Shown here in pieces: positions 7,156 to 32,299 of a stretch of 33,857 nucleotides of DNA (position 1 is the first letter of the stretch; each line of letters opens with the position of its first letter). The translations under genes were made by a program, and so were the position numbers. Source of the DNA: a virus; the IMG/VR virus record IMGVR_UViG_3300027983_001643, positions 1-33,857 of that record; one strand, 5' to 3'. The notes beneath the pieces were generated by a model, which had not been told where the DNA came from, did not search any database, and worked only from the letters and a program-made list of their open reading frames with translations.

Positions 7156-7946
7156 AGGTCTAAATTCTTTTCGGTTATAATGTTATACTTCATTTTATTT
7201 GTCAAACAATATTTTTTCGCAGCTTTAGTTTTTGCTAAAATTTTAGGAAGAGTAGTTTGTTTTTTTGGTTTTACTTCATGTAATTCAATTCCGTTTACGA
7301 GAAAGTCGGGAACATAATATCGATTGGTTCTTGTTGTTGGGTCGAGATATTGAATTCGAATTCCATGTTTCTTAGTCCATTCAACACCTTTAGAGTCCAT
7401 GATTTCCATGTATTTTTTTTCATAAGAACTTTCGTAAAATTCTTTGGTTCCATCCAATTTTGTATACCACCCTTTTCTAAAACGAAATTGATTTTTAAGA
7501 GTTCCATTGGCGAGCATTTTTGAGATGGTATTTGAAACTTTCTGACCAAGAGCCTTGTAGTCTGTCTTGCGTTTAGACAAATCAATTTCTCCGCGGTCAT
7601 ACATACCTTGGATGATTTTTGAATTCTTAATTGATAGTTTGGCGAGCCTTTTATCGGTCTTTTTTGATTTTCCTTTCGCCCAAGGAATTCCAAAGTTTTT
7701 TCCATTTCCTGGACAAGCCAATTGAGGATGAGTTTCTTTTGTAAAACCTTTATTCCAAGGACCATTTTCTTTATTGTGTTTACAAAATCCATTTTTAGCA
7801 TTTTTTATTCTCTCAGCTTTTCTTTCCGAATCTACATTACTACATTTTCTGGAGCAGTATCGAGCAGTTTTTTCTCTATACTTACTAACATAGAAGACGG
7901 AGCCGCAGACAGCACAGTATTTTTCAATTTGTTCTTTTTTTCGCAT
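7152..7946 (-). CDS. Homing-type endonuclease with zinc finger, NUMOD-like repeats and PD-(D/E)xK core
   Basis: The 264 residues start with a four-Cys zinc finger (CAVCGSVF...RYCSRKCSN). A basic middle region follows, with NUMOD3-like GPWNKGFTKETHPQ and GIPWAKGKSKKT segments. The C-terminal nuclease core is YVPDFLVNGIELHEVKPKK, where D, E and K form a PD-(D/E)xK-like site. Such free-standing genes cut a cognate allele and spread by gene conversion. It is inserted in the glycan operon, overlaps the small RHH gene at its start and ends in ATGA with the GT4 gene. A good ribosome-binding site (AAGGAG) lies 8 bases before the start. Confidence 0.75.
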   Translation of the reverse strand: MRKKEQIEKYCAVCGSVFYVSKYREKTARYCSRKCSNVDSERKAERIKNAKNGFCKHNKENGPWNKGFTKETHPQLACPGNGKNFGIPWAKGKSKKTDKRLAKLSIKNSKIIQGMYDRGEIDLSKRKTDYKALGQKVSNTISKMLANGTLKNQFRFRKGWYTKLDGTKEFYESSYEKKYMEIMDSKGVEWTKKHGIRIQYLDPTTRTNRYYVPDFLVNGIELHEVKPKKQTTLPKILAKTKAAKKYCLTNKMKYNIITEKNLDL

Positions 7947-8076
7947 TTTCTATCTCCTTTAGTAATACAACCTCCGCCCAACCAGATATTTTTAAATTAT
8001 TGTCCTTACAATATTTCTTAATAACCTCATACGATGCCGAAGCTATCGGAAGAGTTTTTTTGGCTAGTGTGGTCAT
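7924..8076 (-). CDS. Small ribbon-helix-helix-like protein (50 aa)
   Basis: A 50-residue frame starts at 8076. The sequence TLPIASASYEVIKKYCKDNNLKISGW followed by AEVVLLKEIE fits the beta strand plus two helices of ribbon-helix-helix DNA-binding proteins. It overlaps the first 23 bases of the endonuclease gene, and its last codons carry that gene's ribosome-binding site. It may repress its own operon or the endonuclease. Function is inferred from the fold pattern only. Confidence 0.55.
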   Translation of the reverse strand: MTTLAKKTLPIASASYEVIKKYCKDNNLKISGWAEVVLLKEIENAKKRTN

Positions 8077-8101
8077 ATCAATAAGTATATGATAGAATGT
8101 T

Positions 8102-8134
8102 CAAAAGTGTATTTTATTGTATTATTTTACACTT
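8102..8134 (-). terminator. Weak hairpin terminator after the small coiled-coil gene
   Basis: On the minus strand AAGTGTA pairs with TACACTT around an AT-rich loop and is followed by a short T run. It lies directly after the stop at 8134. The hairpin is short, so it may only attenuate. Confidence 0.35.
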
Positions 8135-8325
8135 CAAGGTGTAGTTCCCGCGGTATTTTGGTCTTCTTGCTCACCAATGATAGCTTCCATTTCAGACTTA
8201 ACATCGTTGATACGATCCTTAAAGTCGGCCATTGTACTACGTTTTTCTTTTTCGATTTCACGGAGCCGTTTAGCCAGCTCGTAGATTTTTGTTTTCGCTT
8301 CGTCTCTTGTTAGTGCTTTTGCCAT
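8134..8325 (-). CDS. Small charged coiled-coil protein
   Basis: This 63-residue protein is nearly all helix-forming, rich in Lys, Glu and Arg, with heptad-like spacing (IYELAKRLREIEKEKRSTM...IND-VKSEMEAI) and a Gln/Thr-rich tail. I do not recognise a family. It follows the GT4 gene within four bases, so it is part of that transcript. A structural or adaptor role is possible but unsupported. Confidence 0.6.
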   Translation of the reverse strand: MAKALTRDEAKTKIYELAKRLREIEKEKRSTMADFKDRINDVKSEMEAIIGEQEDQNTAGTTP

Positions 8326-18345: not shown

Positions 18346-18744
18346 TGGACCTGGCGGGAGTCGAACCCGCGTGTTTTAAGATTTGCCCATTAGACATTTA
18401 CAAGCATAGTACCGTAGATACAATCGTAATTAGCTGTACGCTTTACGAAGGTTAAGAATCTTGTAACTTTCTCCCCCATTACCGACTCTCATATCTCATA
18501 GGGAACATATCAGCAGATGTTTGACGTTTATTCTACTCTATCTGCGTTGAATAGATAAACGGGCTACCCTTAGGCAGCGACAGCGTAAGCGCTGTTCACG
18601 TTCTTACGAACGAGGGACAGAACTGTGAGCTTTGCTAGATTTCTCTTTGCATTTATGTTTTTGTAATCAGGATTATGCAGGATGTTTACCACCTGCGCTT
18701 GCGTTCTAAGTTCAACTCATAAAGTCGAATCCAAGAACAGGCCC
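18346..18744 (-). ncRNA. ssrA: Phage-encoded tmRNA
   Basis: The one-piece tmRNA is about 399 bases long. The 5' end GGGCCTG pairs with CAGGTCC at the 3' end (7 bp, one G-T). The hallmark GGATTCGAC lies at 18732-18724, and the T arm GCGGG-TTCGACT-CCCGC closes the tRNA-like domain. CCA is not encoded. An internal frame from GCA at 18650 to TAA at 18570 encodes a tag of up to 26 residues ending NSAYAVAA, which matches the degradation-signal type of ssrA tags. tmRNA with SmpB frees stalled ribosomes and tags the product for proteolysis. No smpB gene is visible here, so the host protein is probably used. Confidence 0.92.
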
Positions 18745-23283: not shown

Positions 23284-23342
23284 GTATATGAGTATATTCG
23301 AACTAACGATTTCTTTCAAACGAAACCTTAATATTTAAAATG

Positions 23343-23679
23343 TTTTCAAAATATGCTATAGCCGCTGTTCTGTCCAGAGCCTTTCAGCTCCTGACCTTAC
23401 ATTTCTCTACGGAATAAATTCCGTTCTTCCTTTTTCAAGAAGAGGCCCCGACCTTCCTATATTAACGTATAACTCACATACTCTAGGATTTTTAGGTTAC
23501 TGCGGATTTGTGGTAATAACGAACCGCTTGAGGATTGAGATCCATAGACCCTTCTGATTTGGACTCAGACACTATGACTGTCATCGATTCAGCATTGCTC
23601 TTCCAGCATCGAGTTAAGCAGCAGCGAACTTCCTCGAGGTTTTACTTTCGCCCCGCGTAAGGTCACATACTCTGAAAAT
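23343..23679 (-). ncRNA. rnpB: Bacterial-type RNase P RNA encoded by the phage
   Basis: The RNA is about 337 bases. The P1 helix pairs TTTTCAGAGTATG at the 5' end with CATATTTTGAAAA at the 3' end (13 bp). P2 pairs GACCTTAC (23664-23657) with GTAAGGTC (23400-23393) perfectly. P3 is CGGGG/CCTCG. Conserved region I appears as GAGGAAGTTCGCTGC (23635-23621) and region V as ACAGAACAGCGGCTATAG (23373-23356). P4 pairs CGCTG with CAGCG, where bacteria usually have CGGG/CCCG, a compensated change. A GGTCGGGG loop resembles the CCA-binding L15. Its role would be cutting 5' leaders off the phage tRNAs. The 5' end abuts the CCA of the preceding tRNA. No rnpA is visible, so the host protein is presumably borrowed. 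Confidence 0.88.
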
Positions 23680-23771
23680 TGGTAGACATGGAGGGACTTG
23701 AACCCACACTCGGCACCTATCGGGTGCGCCTAGTTTATAAAACTAGCGGTGCTACATTACACCACATGTCC
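23680..23771 (-). tRNA. tRNA with TAT anticodon and long variable arm
   Basis: Acceptor GGACATG/CATGTCT, encoded CCA, anticodon arm CTAGT-TTTATAA-ACTAG (TAT, reading AUA), T loop TTCAAGT. The variable arm GCACC-CGAT-AGGTGC is of the class II type normally found only in Leu, Ser and Tyr tRNAs. Amino-acid identity is therefore uncertain. Confidence 0.8.
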
Positions 23772-24945: not shown

Positions 24946-25021
24946 TGGTCGCGGTTGCTGGACTTTCACCAACTTTCTCCATCATACAATGGTGGGCTTC
25001 GTCTACTTTAGCTTAACCACA
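24946..25021 (-). tRNA. tRNA-Thr(TGT)
   Basis: Acceptor TGTGGTT/AACCGCG (two T-G pairs), encoded CCA, anticodon loop ATTGTAT on a stem with one mismatch, T arm GTTGG-TGAAAGT-CCAGC. The T loop lacks the usual TTC. Its 5' end overlaps the mom-like gene's stop by about nine bases. Confidence 0.7.
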
Positions 25022-25684
25022 AAATTGTTTCCAAAGAGCTTCTGATATTGTTATCAGCTCTTGCAGTTCACTGTCGATTAAATTACGTTTAACCCACTTC
25101 TTCTGTGAAGTGGAGCCAACGGGATAAACCCATCGGTCTTTTCCTGTCATGGATACCAACTCTCCCTTTTCTTCAGGTTGAACTCGATTTGTTCTAATAA
25201 GCTTCCCATCAGCTCTTTTAAACATGCGAACCTTATCACCTCGACCTTGGTAAATTGCATTAGTTGCTTTATAAACCGTTCCTAGATGGTGGTCTGGGTC
25301 TGAATAAGATAAGATAACTTTAACGTTTGGAAACTTCTTCACTACAAAATCGTTTGCGTGTGATATTGAAAAACCGGCAAGATTCTTTCTATCCTCTTTT
25401 GGTAGAAGTGTTTCATCGTCTATGATGAAAAGTCGTTGTAATTCCAAGATATCTTTATTATCCACATTTACATCTGGTTTAAAAATTGATTTTTGAACTG
25501 AAGGCGCTGACGTCCTTCCGTAGATTACAACGCCGATTAAATTTTGGTTGTATAGTATTCCAACATAAGCCAATGAAACGGCTGGAAACGAACCCAAGTA
25601 GTGAGTCTGAATAAACTCACGAACTTTGGCTCTCGGAACTTCTTCAAAAGTTACCGACTGTGGGTTAAATGTTTCATTCATCAT
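25013..25684 (-). CDS. Mom-family DNA base modification protein
   Basis: The protein has 223 residues from the ATG at 25684 (a GTG lies one codon before). The sequence THYLGSFPAVSLAYVGILYN, then NLIGVVIYGRTSAPSVQKSIF, LELQRLFIIDDETLLPKEDR and NAIYQGRG, is the pattern of phage Mu Mom-like acetyltransferase-fold enzymes. These convert adenine in DNA to a carbamoylmethyl derivative that blocks host restriction. A TATTTATA element ends five bases before the start. It lies alone among tRNAs; no Com-type regulator is visible. Confidence 0.85.
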   Translation of the reverse strand: MMNETFNPQSVTFEEVPRAKVREFIQTHYLGSFPAVSLAYVGILYNQNLIGVVIYGRTSAPSVQKSIFKPDVNVDNKDILELQRLFIIDDETLLPKEDRKNLAGFSISHANDFVVKKFPNVKVILSYSDPDHHLGTVYKATNAIYQGRGDKVRMFKRADGKLIRTNRVQPEEKGELVSMTGKDRWVYPVGSTSQKKWVKRNLIDSELQELITISEALWKQFCG

Positions 25685-25688
25685 CACT

Positions 25689-28984: not shown

Positions 28985-30375
28985 AGAAAGCCCACCGATC
29001 TTTAGTCGGTGGGATGAATTGTGCTAAATTTGAATTATTATTCACTTTTCTACAAAAAAATTGAATGTTTTGTAAAGTCTATGCTATTTATCATAGTGGA
29101 CACAATAATCAAAGGATATAAGTTTAGAATTTATCCAACAAAAGAACAAGAAATTCTTTTGGAGAAGCATTTTGGTTGTTGTCGGTTTGTCTACAATTTG
29201 GGACTAGAATTAAAGAATAAGACTTATCAAGAAACCGGAAAATCTATAACTGCTACAAAATTAATGGAAATGGTCAAGGAACTTAAACACTCCAAATATT
29301 TGTTTTTAAGGGAAGTTAATTCACAATCCGTTCAACAATCACTGTGGGATTTGGATAGTGCATTTTCTAGATTTTTTAAGAAGATCGCTAAGTATCCAAA
29401 TTTCAAAAGTAAACATATATCTAAAAAATCGTTTCAAATTCCACAAGGATTTGATGTGGATTATTCAAAATCAAATATTTCAATTCCAAAGATCAAAGAA
29501 CCAATCAAGTGTATTTTTCACAGAAAAGTTGTTGGAGAAGTTGGATCAATTTTTATATCCAAGAATTCAAGGGGGAAATATTTTGCATCATTGAGAGTTG
29601 AAACTAAAATAAAGAAAAAAGATAAATCAATTCCAACATTGGAGAATTCAATTGGAATTGATCTTGGAATTTCAACATTTGTGACGGATTCAAACGGAAA
29701 CAAATATTCAAATCCAAAACTTCTAAAAAAATACGAAAAACTGTTGTCCAAGAAGCAACGAATTTTGTCAAAGAAAAAACTAGGGTCAAAAAAGAGAGAA
29801 TTGTGGAAGAAACGAGTTTCTAATATCCACGCAAAAATTTCTAATAGTAGAAAAGATTTTCATCATAAATTAAGTTCAAAGTTAGTTCGTGAGAACCAAA
29901 CGATCTGCCTCGAAGACTTATCTATAAAAAACATGATGAAAAATCGTAAGTTATCCAAATCAATTGGAGACGTTGGTTGGGGGCAATTCATTTCGTTCCT
30001 AACTTATAAATCCGATTGGTATGGAACCAATCTTCTGACAATTGGAAGATTTGAACCATCGTCAAAAATGTGTTCTTGCGGTAAGATCAATCAAAATCTA
30101 AAACTATCCGATAGAACGTGGAAATGTTCTTGTGGAAAAGTCCATGACCGAGATGTTCTGGCCGCTGGTAATATAAAGAAATTTGCTTTTGTCAATTTAT
30201 TGGCAAAAGATAAAATAGGACGGGAACCGTCCGAATCTAAGTCCGTGGAGAAATTGACCTCTGATGATCTTCGCAAGATGATTGTCAAGCCGAATTCAAT
30301 GAAGCGGAAAAAATCCAACGATACTATAAAAAGTTACGTTGAAGCCGACTCTTCTTTAGAGGGTCGGTAGTTCAC
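28985..30375 (+). mobile_element. Complete IS605/IS1341-type element carrying only tnpB
   Basis: The left end is a 35-base hairpin block at 28985-29019, identical to the scar at 21466-21500. The right end at 30341-30375 (GAAGCCGACTC...GAGGGTCGGTAGTTCAC) matches two other ends in the window. No tnpA transposase is present, so movement would need one in trans. It sits between tRNA-Asn and the gene at 30372-30968, whose last codons it touches. Confidence 0.85.
29081..30370 (+). CDS. tnpB: TnpB RNA-guided nuclease (RuvC-type)
   Basis: From the ATG at 29081 the protein has 429 residues; an earlier in-frame start adds 20 residues not typical of the family. It has KGYKFRIYPTKEQ at the N-terminus, RuvC residues Asp194 (GIDLGIS), Glu278 (CLEDLSI) and Asp358 (HDRDVLAAGNI), and a zinc finger with Cys331, 333, 349 and 351. 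All catalytic residues are intact, so it is probably active. TnpB uses a guide RNA made from the element's right end to cut DNA and so keeps the element in place. The C-terminus overlaps the right-end hairpin, and the gene ends TAG. Confidence 0.92.
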   Translation: MLFIIVDTIIKGYKFRIYPTKEQEILLEKHFGCCRFVYNLGLELKNKTYQETGKSITATKLMEMVKELKHSKYLFLREVNSQSVQQSLWDLDSAFSRFFKKIAKYPNFKSKHISKKSFQIPQGFDVDYSKSNISIPKIKEPIKCIFHRKVVGEVGSIFISKNSRGKYFASLRVETKIKKKDKSIPTLENSIGIDLGISTFVTDSNGNKYSNPKLLKKYEKLLSKKQRILSKKKLGSKKRELWKKRVSNIHAKISNSRKDFHHKLSSKLVRENQTICLEDLSIKNMMKNRKLSKSIGDVGWGQFISFLTYKSDWYGTNLLTIGRFEPSSKMCSCGKINQNLKLSDRTWKCSCGKVHDRDVLAAGNIKKFAFVNLLAKDKIGREPSESKSVEKLTSDDLRKMIVKPNSMKRKKSNDTIKSYVEADSSLEGR

Positions 30376-31247: not shown

Positions 31248-31371
31248 CTTTAAGTTGTAAATGCAGTTGTGAACTCAGTTGTGAATACAGTCGTGAACTC
31301 AGTTGTGAATGCAGTCGTGAACTCAGTCGTGAACACAGTTGTAAATACAGTTGTTCTTTAATCGGTTTCAT
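31234..31371 (-). CDS. QLxS repeat ORF, segment 6 (45 aa)
   Basis: Starts MKPIKEQLYLQL at 31371 and ends LKDEID with TAG. Nine tetrapeptide units. Overlaps neighbours by 14 bases on each side. Confidence 0.5.
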   Translation of the reverse strand: MKPIKEQLYLQLCSRLSSRLHSQLSSRLYSQLSSQLHLQLKDEID

Positions 31372-31567
31372 TATTGAGTTGTAAATGCAGTTGTGAATAC
31401 AGTCGTGAACTCAGTCGTGAACACAGTTGTGAATACAGTTGTGAATACAGTTGTGAATACAGTCGTGAATCCAGTTGTGAATCCAGTTGTGAATGCAGTT
31501 GTGAATACAGTTGTGAACCCAGTTGTGAATACAGTCGTGAATACAGTTGTTCTCTAGTCGATTTCAT
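31358..31567 (-). CDS. QLxS repeat ORF, segment 5 (69 aa)
   Basis: Starts MKSTREQLYSRL at 31567 and ends LNNETD with TAA. The body is tetrapeptides LxSQ or LxSR with x mostly Tyr, Gly, His or Asp. Start and stop lie in 14-base overlaps with the next segments, allowing termination-reinitiation. Confidence 0.5.
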   Translation of the reverse strand: MKSTREQLYSRLYSQLGSQLYSQLHSQLDSQLDSRLYSQLYSQLYSQLCSRLSSRLYSQLHLQLNNETD

Positions 31568-31895
31568 CTTTAAGTTGTAAATGCAGTTGTGAACTCAGTT
31601 GTGAACACAGTTGTGACCTCAGTTGTGCACTCAGTTGTGACCTCAGTTGTAAATACAGTGGTGACCACAATTGTGAACCCAGTTGTGAATACAGTTGTGA
31701 ACCCAGTTGTGAATACAGTTGTGAACCCAGTTGTAAACTCAGTTGTGAATACAGTTGTGAATCCAGTTGTGAACCCAGTTGTGAACCCAGTTGTAAACTC
31801 AGTTGTGAATACAGTTGTGAATCCAGTTGTGAACCCAGTTGTGAATGCAGTTGTGAATACAGTTGTAAATACAGTTGTTCTTTAATCGGTTTCAT
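31554..31895 (-). CDS. QLxS repeat ORF, segment 4 (113 aa)
   Basis: The longest member. It starts MKPIKEQLYLQLYSQLHSQL at 31895 and ends LKDEID with TAG after about 25 tetrapeptide units. Leu every fourth residue with polar Gln/Ser and variable aromatic or small residues suggests a regular solenoid or amphipathic helix. DUF6745 proteins carry such repeats inside their sequence. Confidence 0.55.
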   Translation of the reverse strand: MKPIKEQLYLQLYSQLHSQLGSQLDSQLYSQLSLQLGSQLGSQLDSQLYSQLSLQLGSQLYSQLGSQLYSQLGSQLWSPLYLQLRSQLSAQLRSQLCSQLSSQLHLQLKDEID

Positions 31896-32091
31896 TATTG
31901 AGTTGTAAATGCAGTTGTGAATACAGTCGTGAACTCAGTTGTAAACTCAGTCGTGAACCCAGTTGTGAATACAGTCGTGAATACAGTCGTGAACCCAGTT
32001 GTGAATGCAGTTGTGAATGCAGTTGTGAATACAGTTGTGAACCCAGTTGTGAATACAGTTGTAAATACAGTTGTTCTCTAGTCGATTTCAT
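31882..32091 (-). CDS. QLxS repeat ORF, segment 3 (69 aa)
   Basis: Starts MKSTREQLYLQL at 32091 and ends LNNETD with TAA. Very similar to segment 5, which points to duplication of a pair of segments. Confidence 0.5.
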   Translation of the reverse strand: MKSTREQLYLQLYSQLGSQLYSQLHSQLHSQLGSRLYSRLYSQLGSRLSLQLSSRLYSQLHLQLNNETD

Positions 32092-32299
32092 CTTTAAGTT
32101 GTAAATGCAGTTGTGAACTCAGTTGTGAATGCAGTTGTGACCTCAGTTGTGCACTCAGTTGTGACCTCAGTTGTAAATACAGTGGTGACCACAATTGTGA
32201 AGCCAGTTGTGAATGCAGTTGGGAATACAGTTGTGAATCCAGTCGTGAATCCAGTCGTGAATACAGTCGTGAATACAGTTGTTCTTTAATCGGTTTCAT
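32078..32299 (-). CDS. QLxS repeat ORF, segment 2 (73 aa)
   Basis: Starts MKPIKEQLYSRLYSRL at 32299 and ends LKDEID with TAG. Its last half (SQLWSPLYLQLRSQLSAQLR) matches segment 4, again as in a tandem duplication. Confidence 0.5.
   Translation of the reverse strand: MKPIKEQLYSRLYSRLDSRLDSQLYSQLHSQLASQLWSPLYLQLRSQLSAQLRSQLHSQLSSQLHLQLKDEID

Follow-up and report, generated by a model that had tools for sequence, protein, structure and literature searches.

On the minus strand of the DNA analysed here (the window, i.e., the whole stretch of 33,857 nucleotides), an RNA of the RNase P type was located, its 5' end lying just past the CCA of tRNA-Ile(UAU) and its P1' end at position 23343. Judged by sequence, this RNA is an RNase P RNA by homology, and not one of class A. 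The following features were assigned to the locus:

23680-23771, minus strand: tRNA-Ile(UAU), directly upstream of the RNA (ARAGORN; CCA encoded)
23343-23678, minus strand: RNase P RNA gene, whole from P1 to P1' (match to covariance model R1 at 23340-23696; nhmmer match)
23665-23678, minus strand: P1 5' strand, 14 pairs including G-U with 23343-23356; covaries in the family
23657-23664, minus strand: P2 5' strand, 8 pairs with 23393-23400; six inner pairs general in the family
23635-23656, minus strand: P3 hairpin (window fold and P3 counts of the family)
23619-23635, minus strand: CR-I GAGGAAGUUCGCUGCUG, holding the P4 5' strand (23622-23630) and the bulged U
23618-23621, minus strand: P5 5' strand, pairing with 23500-23503; 88% of P5 cells paired in the family
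23611-23616, minus strand: P6 5' strand of a probable pseudoknot, UAACUC with GAGUUA at 23470-23475
23504-23606, minus strand: reduced specificity domain, P11/P12 region (114 nt separating the P5 strands)
23500-23503, minus strand: P5 3' strand, partner of 23618-23621
23484-23489, minus strand: P15 5' strand, after the A-rich J5/15 (covariance-model alignment)
23470-23475, minus strand: P6 3' strand GAGUUA, partner of 23611-23616
23455-23461, minus strand: P15 3' strand (covariance-model alignment)
23444-23453, minus strand: L15 GGU motif GGUCGGGGCC, GGU columns invariant in 52/52 aligned members
23409-23443, minus strand: two hairpins of the P16-P18 region (MFE fold)
23400-23408, minus strand: J18/2 (J18/2-like) AGAGAAAUG, AGANNAAUG invariant in 52/52 aligned members
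23393-23400, minus strand: P2 3' strand, partner of 23657-23664
23374-23392, minus strand: hairpin between P2 and P4 (fold; by eye also in L031 and L037)
23356-23373, minus strand: CR-V ACAGAACAGCGGCUAUAG, holding the P4 3' strand
23343-23356, minus strand: P1 3' strand, partner of 23665-23678

Within the RNA, P1, P2 and P3 follow each other in sequence, P2' precedes CR-V and P1' comes after it; P4 is formed, bulged U included, and where it departs from the bacterial P4 the changes are compensated. An earlier note on this DNA had described both universal segments in RNase P order, a P2 of 8 bp, P3 and P4, and a position adjoining the CCA end of a tRNA, all of which were recovered. Its P1 of 13 bp likewise exists as a helix but counts 14 pairs including G-U, and its cluster of about 24 tRNAs was not confirmed, as ARAGORN gives 16 tRNAs and one tmRNA for the window (with 13 tRNAs and the tmRNA passed by Rfam). 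CCA is encoded by 16/16 of these tRNAs; in bacterial RNase P RNA, the L15 GGU binds the tRNA 3' CCA. The invariance of J18/2 is in part built in, as the search patterns demanded GAKNAATG, and the hairpin at 23374-23392 is taken by us to occupy the position of P19. Among the program-listed ORFs of at least 60 aa none overlaps 23343-23678, and the free-energy fold of the window RNA by itself is not significant (z -1.67).

Aside from the RNA, the window tmRNA was located at 18346-18744 (minus strand) with the tag AKRNLAKLTVLSLVRKNVNSAYAVAA, and the window proteins include members of the dCMP deaminase and deoxynucleotide kinase families as well as a Mom-like DNA modification protein (25013-25687, minus strand). 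A TnpB/IS605 OrfB-like gene (29021-30370, plus strand) lies within the tRNA region, whose tRNAs are on the other strand, and degenerate repeats at 31358-32299, open on both strands, code for peptides of the SQLYSQLGSQL type.

The earlier note had called for a search with the Rfam RNase P models and had named two outcomes as refuting, i.e., the lack of a covariance-model match or a core so eroded that no relative folds the same way. The first of these came true, as no Rfam RNase P match to the window RNA was obtained at E<=10 (all families, 401 bases searched): RF00010 found no match anywhere in the 33,857-base virus record, and the bacterial class B, archaeal, nuclear and other Rfam RNase P families did not match the window RNA. 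The second was not met, given that relatives fold alike with compensatory change. A covariance model (R1) derived from 31 relatives, none of them of the window's group, finds 23340-23696 with 83 bits and E 8.5e-23 as its sole window match at E<=10, and an nhmmer sequence profile of 84 members, from which the window sequence, L031 and L037 were left out, recognises the window RNA with E 1.4e-24, its next match having E 1.8. R1 was built on 31 of 57 short members with its structure drawn on L107, which favours this structure over slid versions of it, and its E-values are rough because the calibration was short. The failure of Rfam was considered to reflect divergence and not refutation, since relatives fold alike with extensive compensatory change, other members match RF00010 and the relatives' model finds the window RNA. 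Thus the identity of 23343-23679 as RNase P RNA, as proposed before, is supported by R1, by nhmmer, by covariation and by the relatives that match RF00010.

Relatives were collected from IMG/VR with sequence patterns. An exact 18-base CR-I pattern led back to this very sequence in further contigs of the window's phage, none of them counted as independent, and to a single divergent homologue, present without differences in a 108 kb and a 112 kb contig; further relatives came from two patterns joining J18/2 and CR-V, also run on IMG/VR, and from blastn. At least 142 places carry J18/2 with CR-V, and 101 of them have CR-I upstream, giving at least 87 distinct RNAs of this architecture; the remaining 41/142 have no CR-I within 480 nt and may be truncated, variant or due to chance. 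Of the 87 distinct RNAs collected, GenBank phage records supplied two and IMG/VR the other 85, among them that of the window. The window RNA is 79% identical to L037, 74% to L031 and at most 61% to the other collected members. As a consequence of the pattern construction, the invariance of CR-I, CR-V and J18/2 is partly given beforehand, and the pattern also fixed C or U at the bulge and one side of the last P4 pair; the remaining variable P4 pairs, P2, P3, P5 and P15 were not selected by the patterns. The distance from P2 to CR-V ranges from 169 to 414 nt among the members (median 231; window 306; 175 nt in L128 and 223 nt in Stenotrophomonas phage DLP6), and from these short spans the specificity domain is inferred to be small in many of them. 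The span from P5 to P5 is a crude measure, amounting to 83 nt for L137 despite its canonical domain, and the total length was relied on instead. By eye, the RNAs of L014, L030, L016, L027 and L037 are enlarged by long inserts in P12 or P18, both variable regions, and the insert of L027 may be partly coding.

Searched with blastn against phage records, the RNAs of the window, L012, L039 and L107 gave no match, that of L083 gave two weak Staphylococcus phage matches (E 0.7), that of L052 matched only itself, that of L079 matched four records and that of L020 five, including DLP6 and LR756511, both of which are real. Two further matches of the L020 RNA were rejected as family members, MT835993 because its RNA is of the bacterial type, Lactobacillus phage 3-521 because R1 does not match it. 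A scan of genome contigs for ACCACAAATNNGCAGNAA returned at least 118 stretches; these were rejected as well, as none of the 118 matches listed holds a family RNA. This pattern has 15 fixed bases, so that by arithmetic hundreds of matches are expected by chance alone, and the scan served only as a source of bacterial controls.

Across the 87 RNAs, 345/348 variable cells of P4 are paired, the mean of 2000 shuffles being 222 and their maximum 247. Three of the eight P4 pairs are constant and four vary over 26 P4 types; one pair is U-G in 76 and C-G in 11 members. The bulged U is found in 87/87 members, the window among them, where the pattern had permitted C or U. P2 and P3 were scored on 85/87 RNAs with an anchor picked for best P2 pairing, and five inner variable pairs of P2 hold in 81-85/85 as compared to shuffle means of 37-62; the seventh and eighth positions are not general (30/85 and 67/85). 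For the structure as a whole, covariation amounts to 0.549 in a MAFFT alignment of 31 members with the structure drawn on one (0.177 shuffled, at most 0.173 slid) and to 0.772 as compared to 0.191 in a model-fitted alignment of 73 members. In the MAFFT alignment, P4, P2, P3 and P5 are 88-100% paired, followed by P16 (76%), P15 and P1 (72% each), P12 (70%) and P11 (63%); P2, P5, P15 and P1 covary in the family. P6, being 46% paired, finds no support at fixed columns of this alignment (in one fixed-column test of P6, P4 was counted over six pairs only); sequence by sequence, 61/87 RNAs possess at least five exact complementary bases as compared to at most 20 in 1000 shuffles, and the survey of P6 complementarity that gave UAACUC/GAGUUA for the window covered 83/87 RNAs. 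The compensatory changes point to selection on the structure.

The relation to accepted RNase P RNAs is revealed by other members of the family. RF00010 is significant at the RNA in 26/88 records, i.e., in 10/38 of a first and 16/50 of a second set (the latter at E 6.2e-10 or better; at E<=10, 19/50 have a match, the extra three being weak and elsewhere). These sets repeat some RNAs, with five records sharing the L011 RNA and two the L013 RNA, and in L007, L029 and L049 of the first set no CR-I was found in the DNA examined. Five records exceed the gathering score of 100 bits, namely L137 (247.5), L020 (191.1), L077 (168.3), L090 (165.2) and L136 (102), and link the family to bacterial RNase P. 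R1 in turn scores L020 with 93.1, L137 with 67.7, L136 with 63.2 and L090 with 29 bits (L077 was not among the 74 sources searched with R1), and it matched 73/74 sources; only L054 escaped it, a scaffold deposited in GenBank as 'Bacteriophage sp.' and carrying a bacterial-type RNA. Homology of the window RNA to accepted RNase P RNA thus runs through the intermediates L020, L136 and L137 and not through a direct match. In 16 whole bacterial genomes R1 found no rnpB at E<0.01, while RF00010 has matches in 15/16 of the same genomes; on 11 rnpB loci alone R1 responded weakly, the top score being 26.4 bits (E 1.8e-6) and the next two 16.2 and 14.2. The weak response of R1 to rnpB together with the shared intermediates renders the family homologous to, yet distinct from, bacterial rnpB.

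With bacterial class A (RF00010, rnpB) the family shares the order P1-P2-P3-P4-P5-...-P15-J18/2-P2'-P4'-P1', the bulged U in P4 and the L15 GGU, with a P6 pseudoknot probable from the sequence-by-sequence count though not borne out at fixed columns. It differs in CR-I, which reads GAGGAAGYUC in the phages and GAGGAAAGUCC in bacteria, and in CR-V (GGCUA and GGCUUA, respectively), and phage members often have a shorter specificity domain and are phage-borne in tRNA arrays. The family signature, GAGGAAG with GGCUA, has its GAGGAAG in 87/87 members, whereas GAGGAAAG with GGCUUA occurs in 9/9 readable bacterial rnpB loci (of 12); accordingly, the compensatory P4 changes claimed relative to bacteria are borne out, GAGGAAG[U/C]UC/GGCUA standing against GAGGAAAGUCC/GGCUUA in nine bacterial rnpB loci. 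The words ACAGA... and GGUAAGGGUG..., seen in the RF00010 consensus, are those of the canonical class A CR-II and CR-III; L137 keeps a canonical specificity domain with ACAGA and GGUAA words present, and in the 114 nt scanned between the P5 strands of the window RNA, which without any RF00010 match stays below the class A gathering score, both words are absent. The archaeal RNase P RNA (RF00373), which belongs to the same Rfam clan, matches the RNA of a 642 kb phage with 32.4 bits (E 8e-6), a score under the gathering value of 84, and does not match the window RNA. Type T (minimal) RNase P RNA of Pyrobaculum is an archaeal, cellular ribozyme in which the specificity domain is largely missing; the phage family resembles it in the reduced domain and differs in that type T is archaeal and cellular, with no Rfam match to the window RNA.

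The genomic setting is one of tRNA arrays. tRNAs lie near the RNA in 77/87 loci examined, 886/886 of them on the RNA's strand, and the nearest one is at most 100 nt away in 44/87 loci; a tmRNA was found in 15/87 loci, the window included. The assignment of the tRNA strands was verified separately. One array (L039) holds a GOLLD RNA (7888-8305) together with the RNase P RNA. A terminase family match was obtained in 23/50 records, and none in 27/50, among the latter a 62 kb contig (G001) that belongs to the window's phage.

The isolated Stenotrophomonas phage DLP6 (KU682439.2, L052) carries the RNA at 105,752-106,025 (R1, 157 bits) between AAY80_165 and tRNA-Arg, and RF00010 gives 54.7 bits at 105,774-106,022, under the cut-off. 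In the DLP6 record no RNA is annotated there and the R1 match overlaps the final 16 bases of AAY80_165; as far as its main text is available, the DLP6 paper leaves RNase P unmentioned (PMC5349666). A permuted tmRNA of DLP6 (L052 839-1182; RF04321 136.8 bits, ARAGORN tmRNA*) is likewise absent from the annotated features. Further R1 matches lie in the uncultured phages LR756511 (595 kb), LR745206 (635 kb), LR756502 (642 kb) and LR756501 (735 kb). Among 13 phage records tested with R1, four carry the RNA (DLP6, LR756511, LR756501 and LR756502); three of the 13 had been picked for their blastn matches, and of the other ten one has the RNA. Under stricter R1 filters it is absent from XacN1, S-CRM01, phage G, KpLz-2_45, RAS14, PS119XW, Mvi-JY20, vB_Mm5 and 3-521, several of which are rich in tRNAs. 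The earlier wording, that such a ribozyme would be unusual for a phage, understates the matter, as the family occurs in many large phages. Two of the huge phages also encode a candidate for the protein subunit:

LR756502.1, 525189-525473: RnpA-like protein
LR745206.1, 76462-76740: RnpA-like protein

The former matches PF00825 with 52 bits and TIGR00188 with 52.5 (cut-off 38.35), matches RnpA chains of the PDB (best E 3.9e-6) and has the stretch KKFKRAVDRNRVKRLMRE; the latter is 51.6% identical to it. With RNA and RnpA found in LR756502 as well as in LR745206, two phages carry both subunits. PF00825 was found in 0/38 records, the 33.9 kb window included, and in only 1/30 large records (LR756502), many records of both sets, and the window too, being fragments. 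Two more RnpA-like matches came from L296 (5001-5282), an IMG/VR contig of 24.9 kb in which R1 finds nothing, and, with a weak E of 7e-3, from MT836084.1 (2282-2572), entered in GenBank as 'Bacteriophage sp.'. Complete phages of 634, 636, 642 and 735 kb are given in the huge-phage paper, as far as its available text goes (PMC7162821).

Considering these data, the RNA of the window is very probably a divergent, working phage RNase P RNA that serves phage tRNAs, in this phage with the host RnpA, its activity being inferred. The suggested mechanism assumes that the RNA is transcribed together with the phage tRNAs, that in this phage it associates with the host RnpA protein, and that it would cleave 5' leaders off phage pre-tRNAs and probably also off pre-tmRNA, for which no activity data exist. 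In this way, it may add RNase P capacity or sustain phage tRNA maturation when the host enzyme is saturated or lost. The RNase P specificity domain binds the tRNA elbow; because this domain is reduced, substrate choice probably leans more on contact with the acceptor stem and CCA and on the protein. Phage T4 provides the parallel of phage pre-tRNAs being RNase P substrates, with the difference that T4 depends on the host enzyme whereas the window phage brings its own RNA (available parts of PMC11143913 and PMC9697503); the accessible text of the latter describes host RNase P RNA as relatively stable during T4 infection, so that a phage copy has not been shown to be needed. The theta ribozymes located next to phage tRNAs are likewise phage-borne ribozymes tied to tRNAs but HDV-like, and the part of the report available discusses the tRNA 3' side and leaves the 5' ends to RNase P (PMC10879173).

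Other explanations were weighed against a working ribozyme. P2/P3 and J18/2 are the protein-contact regions of RNase P RNA, and their conservation, taken with the reduced specificity domain and the lack of RnpA in most records, would also suit a decoy, i.e., a non-cutting mimic that would sequester the RnpA of the host and so inhibit maturation of the host's tRNAs. Such a decoy is unlikely, as the catalytic centre is kept (the bulged U of P4 in 87/87, CR-I/CR-V and L15 GGU), the RNA stands in line with the tRNAs and two phages also supply their own RnpA; the conserved catalytic elements, the in-line tRNA linkage, the CCA-encoding tRNAs alongside the L15 GGU and the RNA-RnpA pairs thus argue for catalysis. 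A non-functional bacterial rnpB, either vestigial or captured only recently, could account for the divergence and the lost recognition by Rfam, yet it was judged quite improbable, since the compensatory changes show selection on structure and GAGGAAG in all 87 members, as compared to GAGGAAAG in all nine readable bacterial loci, speaks for long phage residence.

That the contigs are bacterial contamination or misbinned is a concern raised by the metagenomic origin of IMG/VR contigs, by the bacterial-type RNA of the L054 scaffold and by the records lacking a terminase match. This was considered highly improbable in the light of the terminase matches in the 23 other records, the tRNA arrays, the presence of the RNA in the isolated phage DLP6 and in uncultured phage records of 595-735 kb, and CR-I and CR-V sequences unlike the bacterial ones. 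The absence of an Rfam RNase P match to the window RNA itself might finally be read as a different structured RNA sharing the motifs by chance, a reading to which we attach next to no weight, as it is contradicted by L020, L137 and L136, each of which is scored by both R1 and RF00010.

Nearly all cells possess RNase P, and descriptions of phage tRNA maturation have involved the enzyme of the host. No report in which a phage-encoded RNase P RNA was recognised was found in the literature searched; a prior description cannot be excluded, because supplements, preprint servers and most subscription journals lay outside this search. In the portions of their main texts available, the huge-phage paper (PMC7162821) and a jumbo-phage review (PMC13282480) leave RNase P unmentioned. 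Taken together, it is likely that large phages possess an RNase P branch of their own, namely a class of virus-borne, often minimal RNAs (median 231 nt from P2 to CR-V, 169 nt in the shortest) by which phage tRNAs are matured without reliance on host rnpB, and in the phages of 635 and 642 kb a complete RNase P made up of RNA and RnpA; these two would then be the first RNase P enzymes known from viruses. A family of phage RNase P RNAs, in some cases accompanied by RnpA, would extend the virus-encoded repertoire by a ribozyme central to tRNA processing and would suggest how tRNA-rich phages mature their tRNA arrays. It would further offer naturally reduced RNase P RNAs, e.g., those of L128 and DLP6, and as DLP6 is an isolated phage, the question is experimentally accessible at once.
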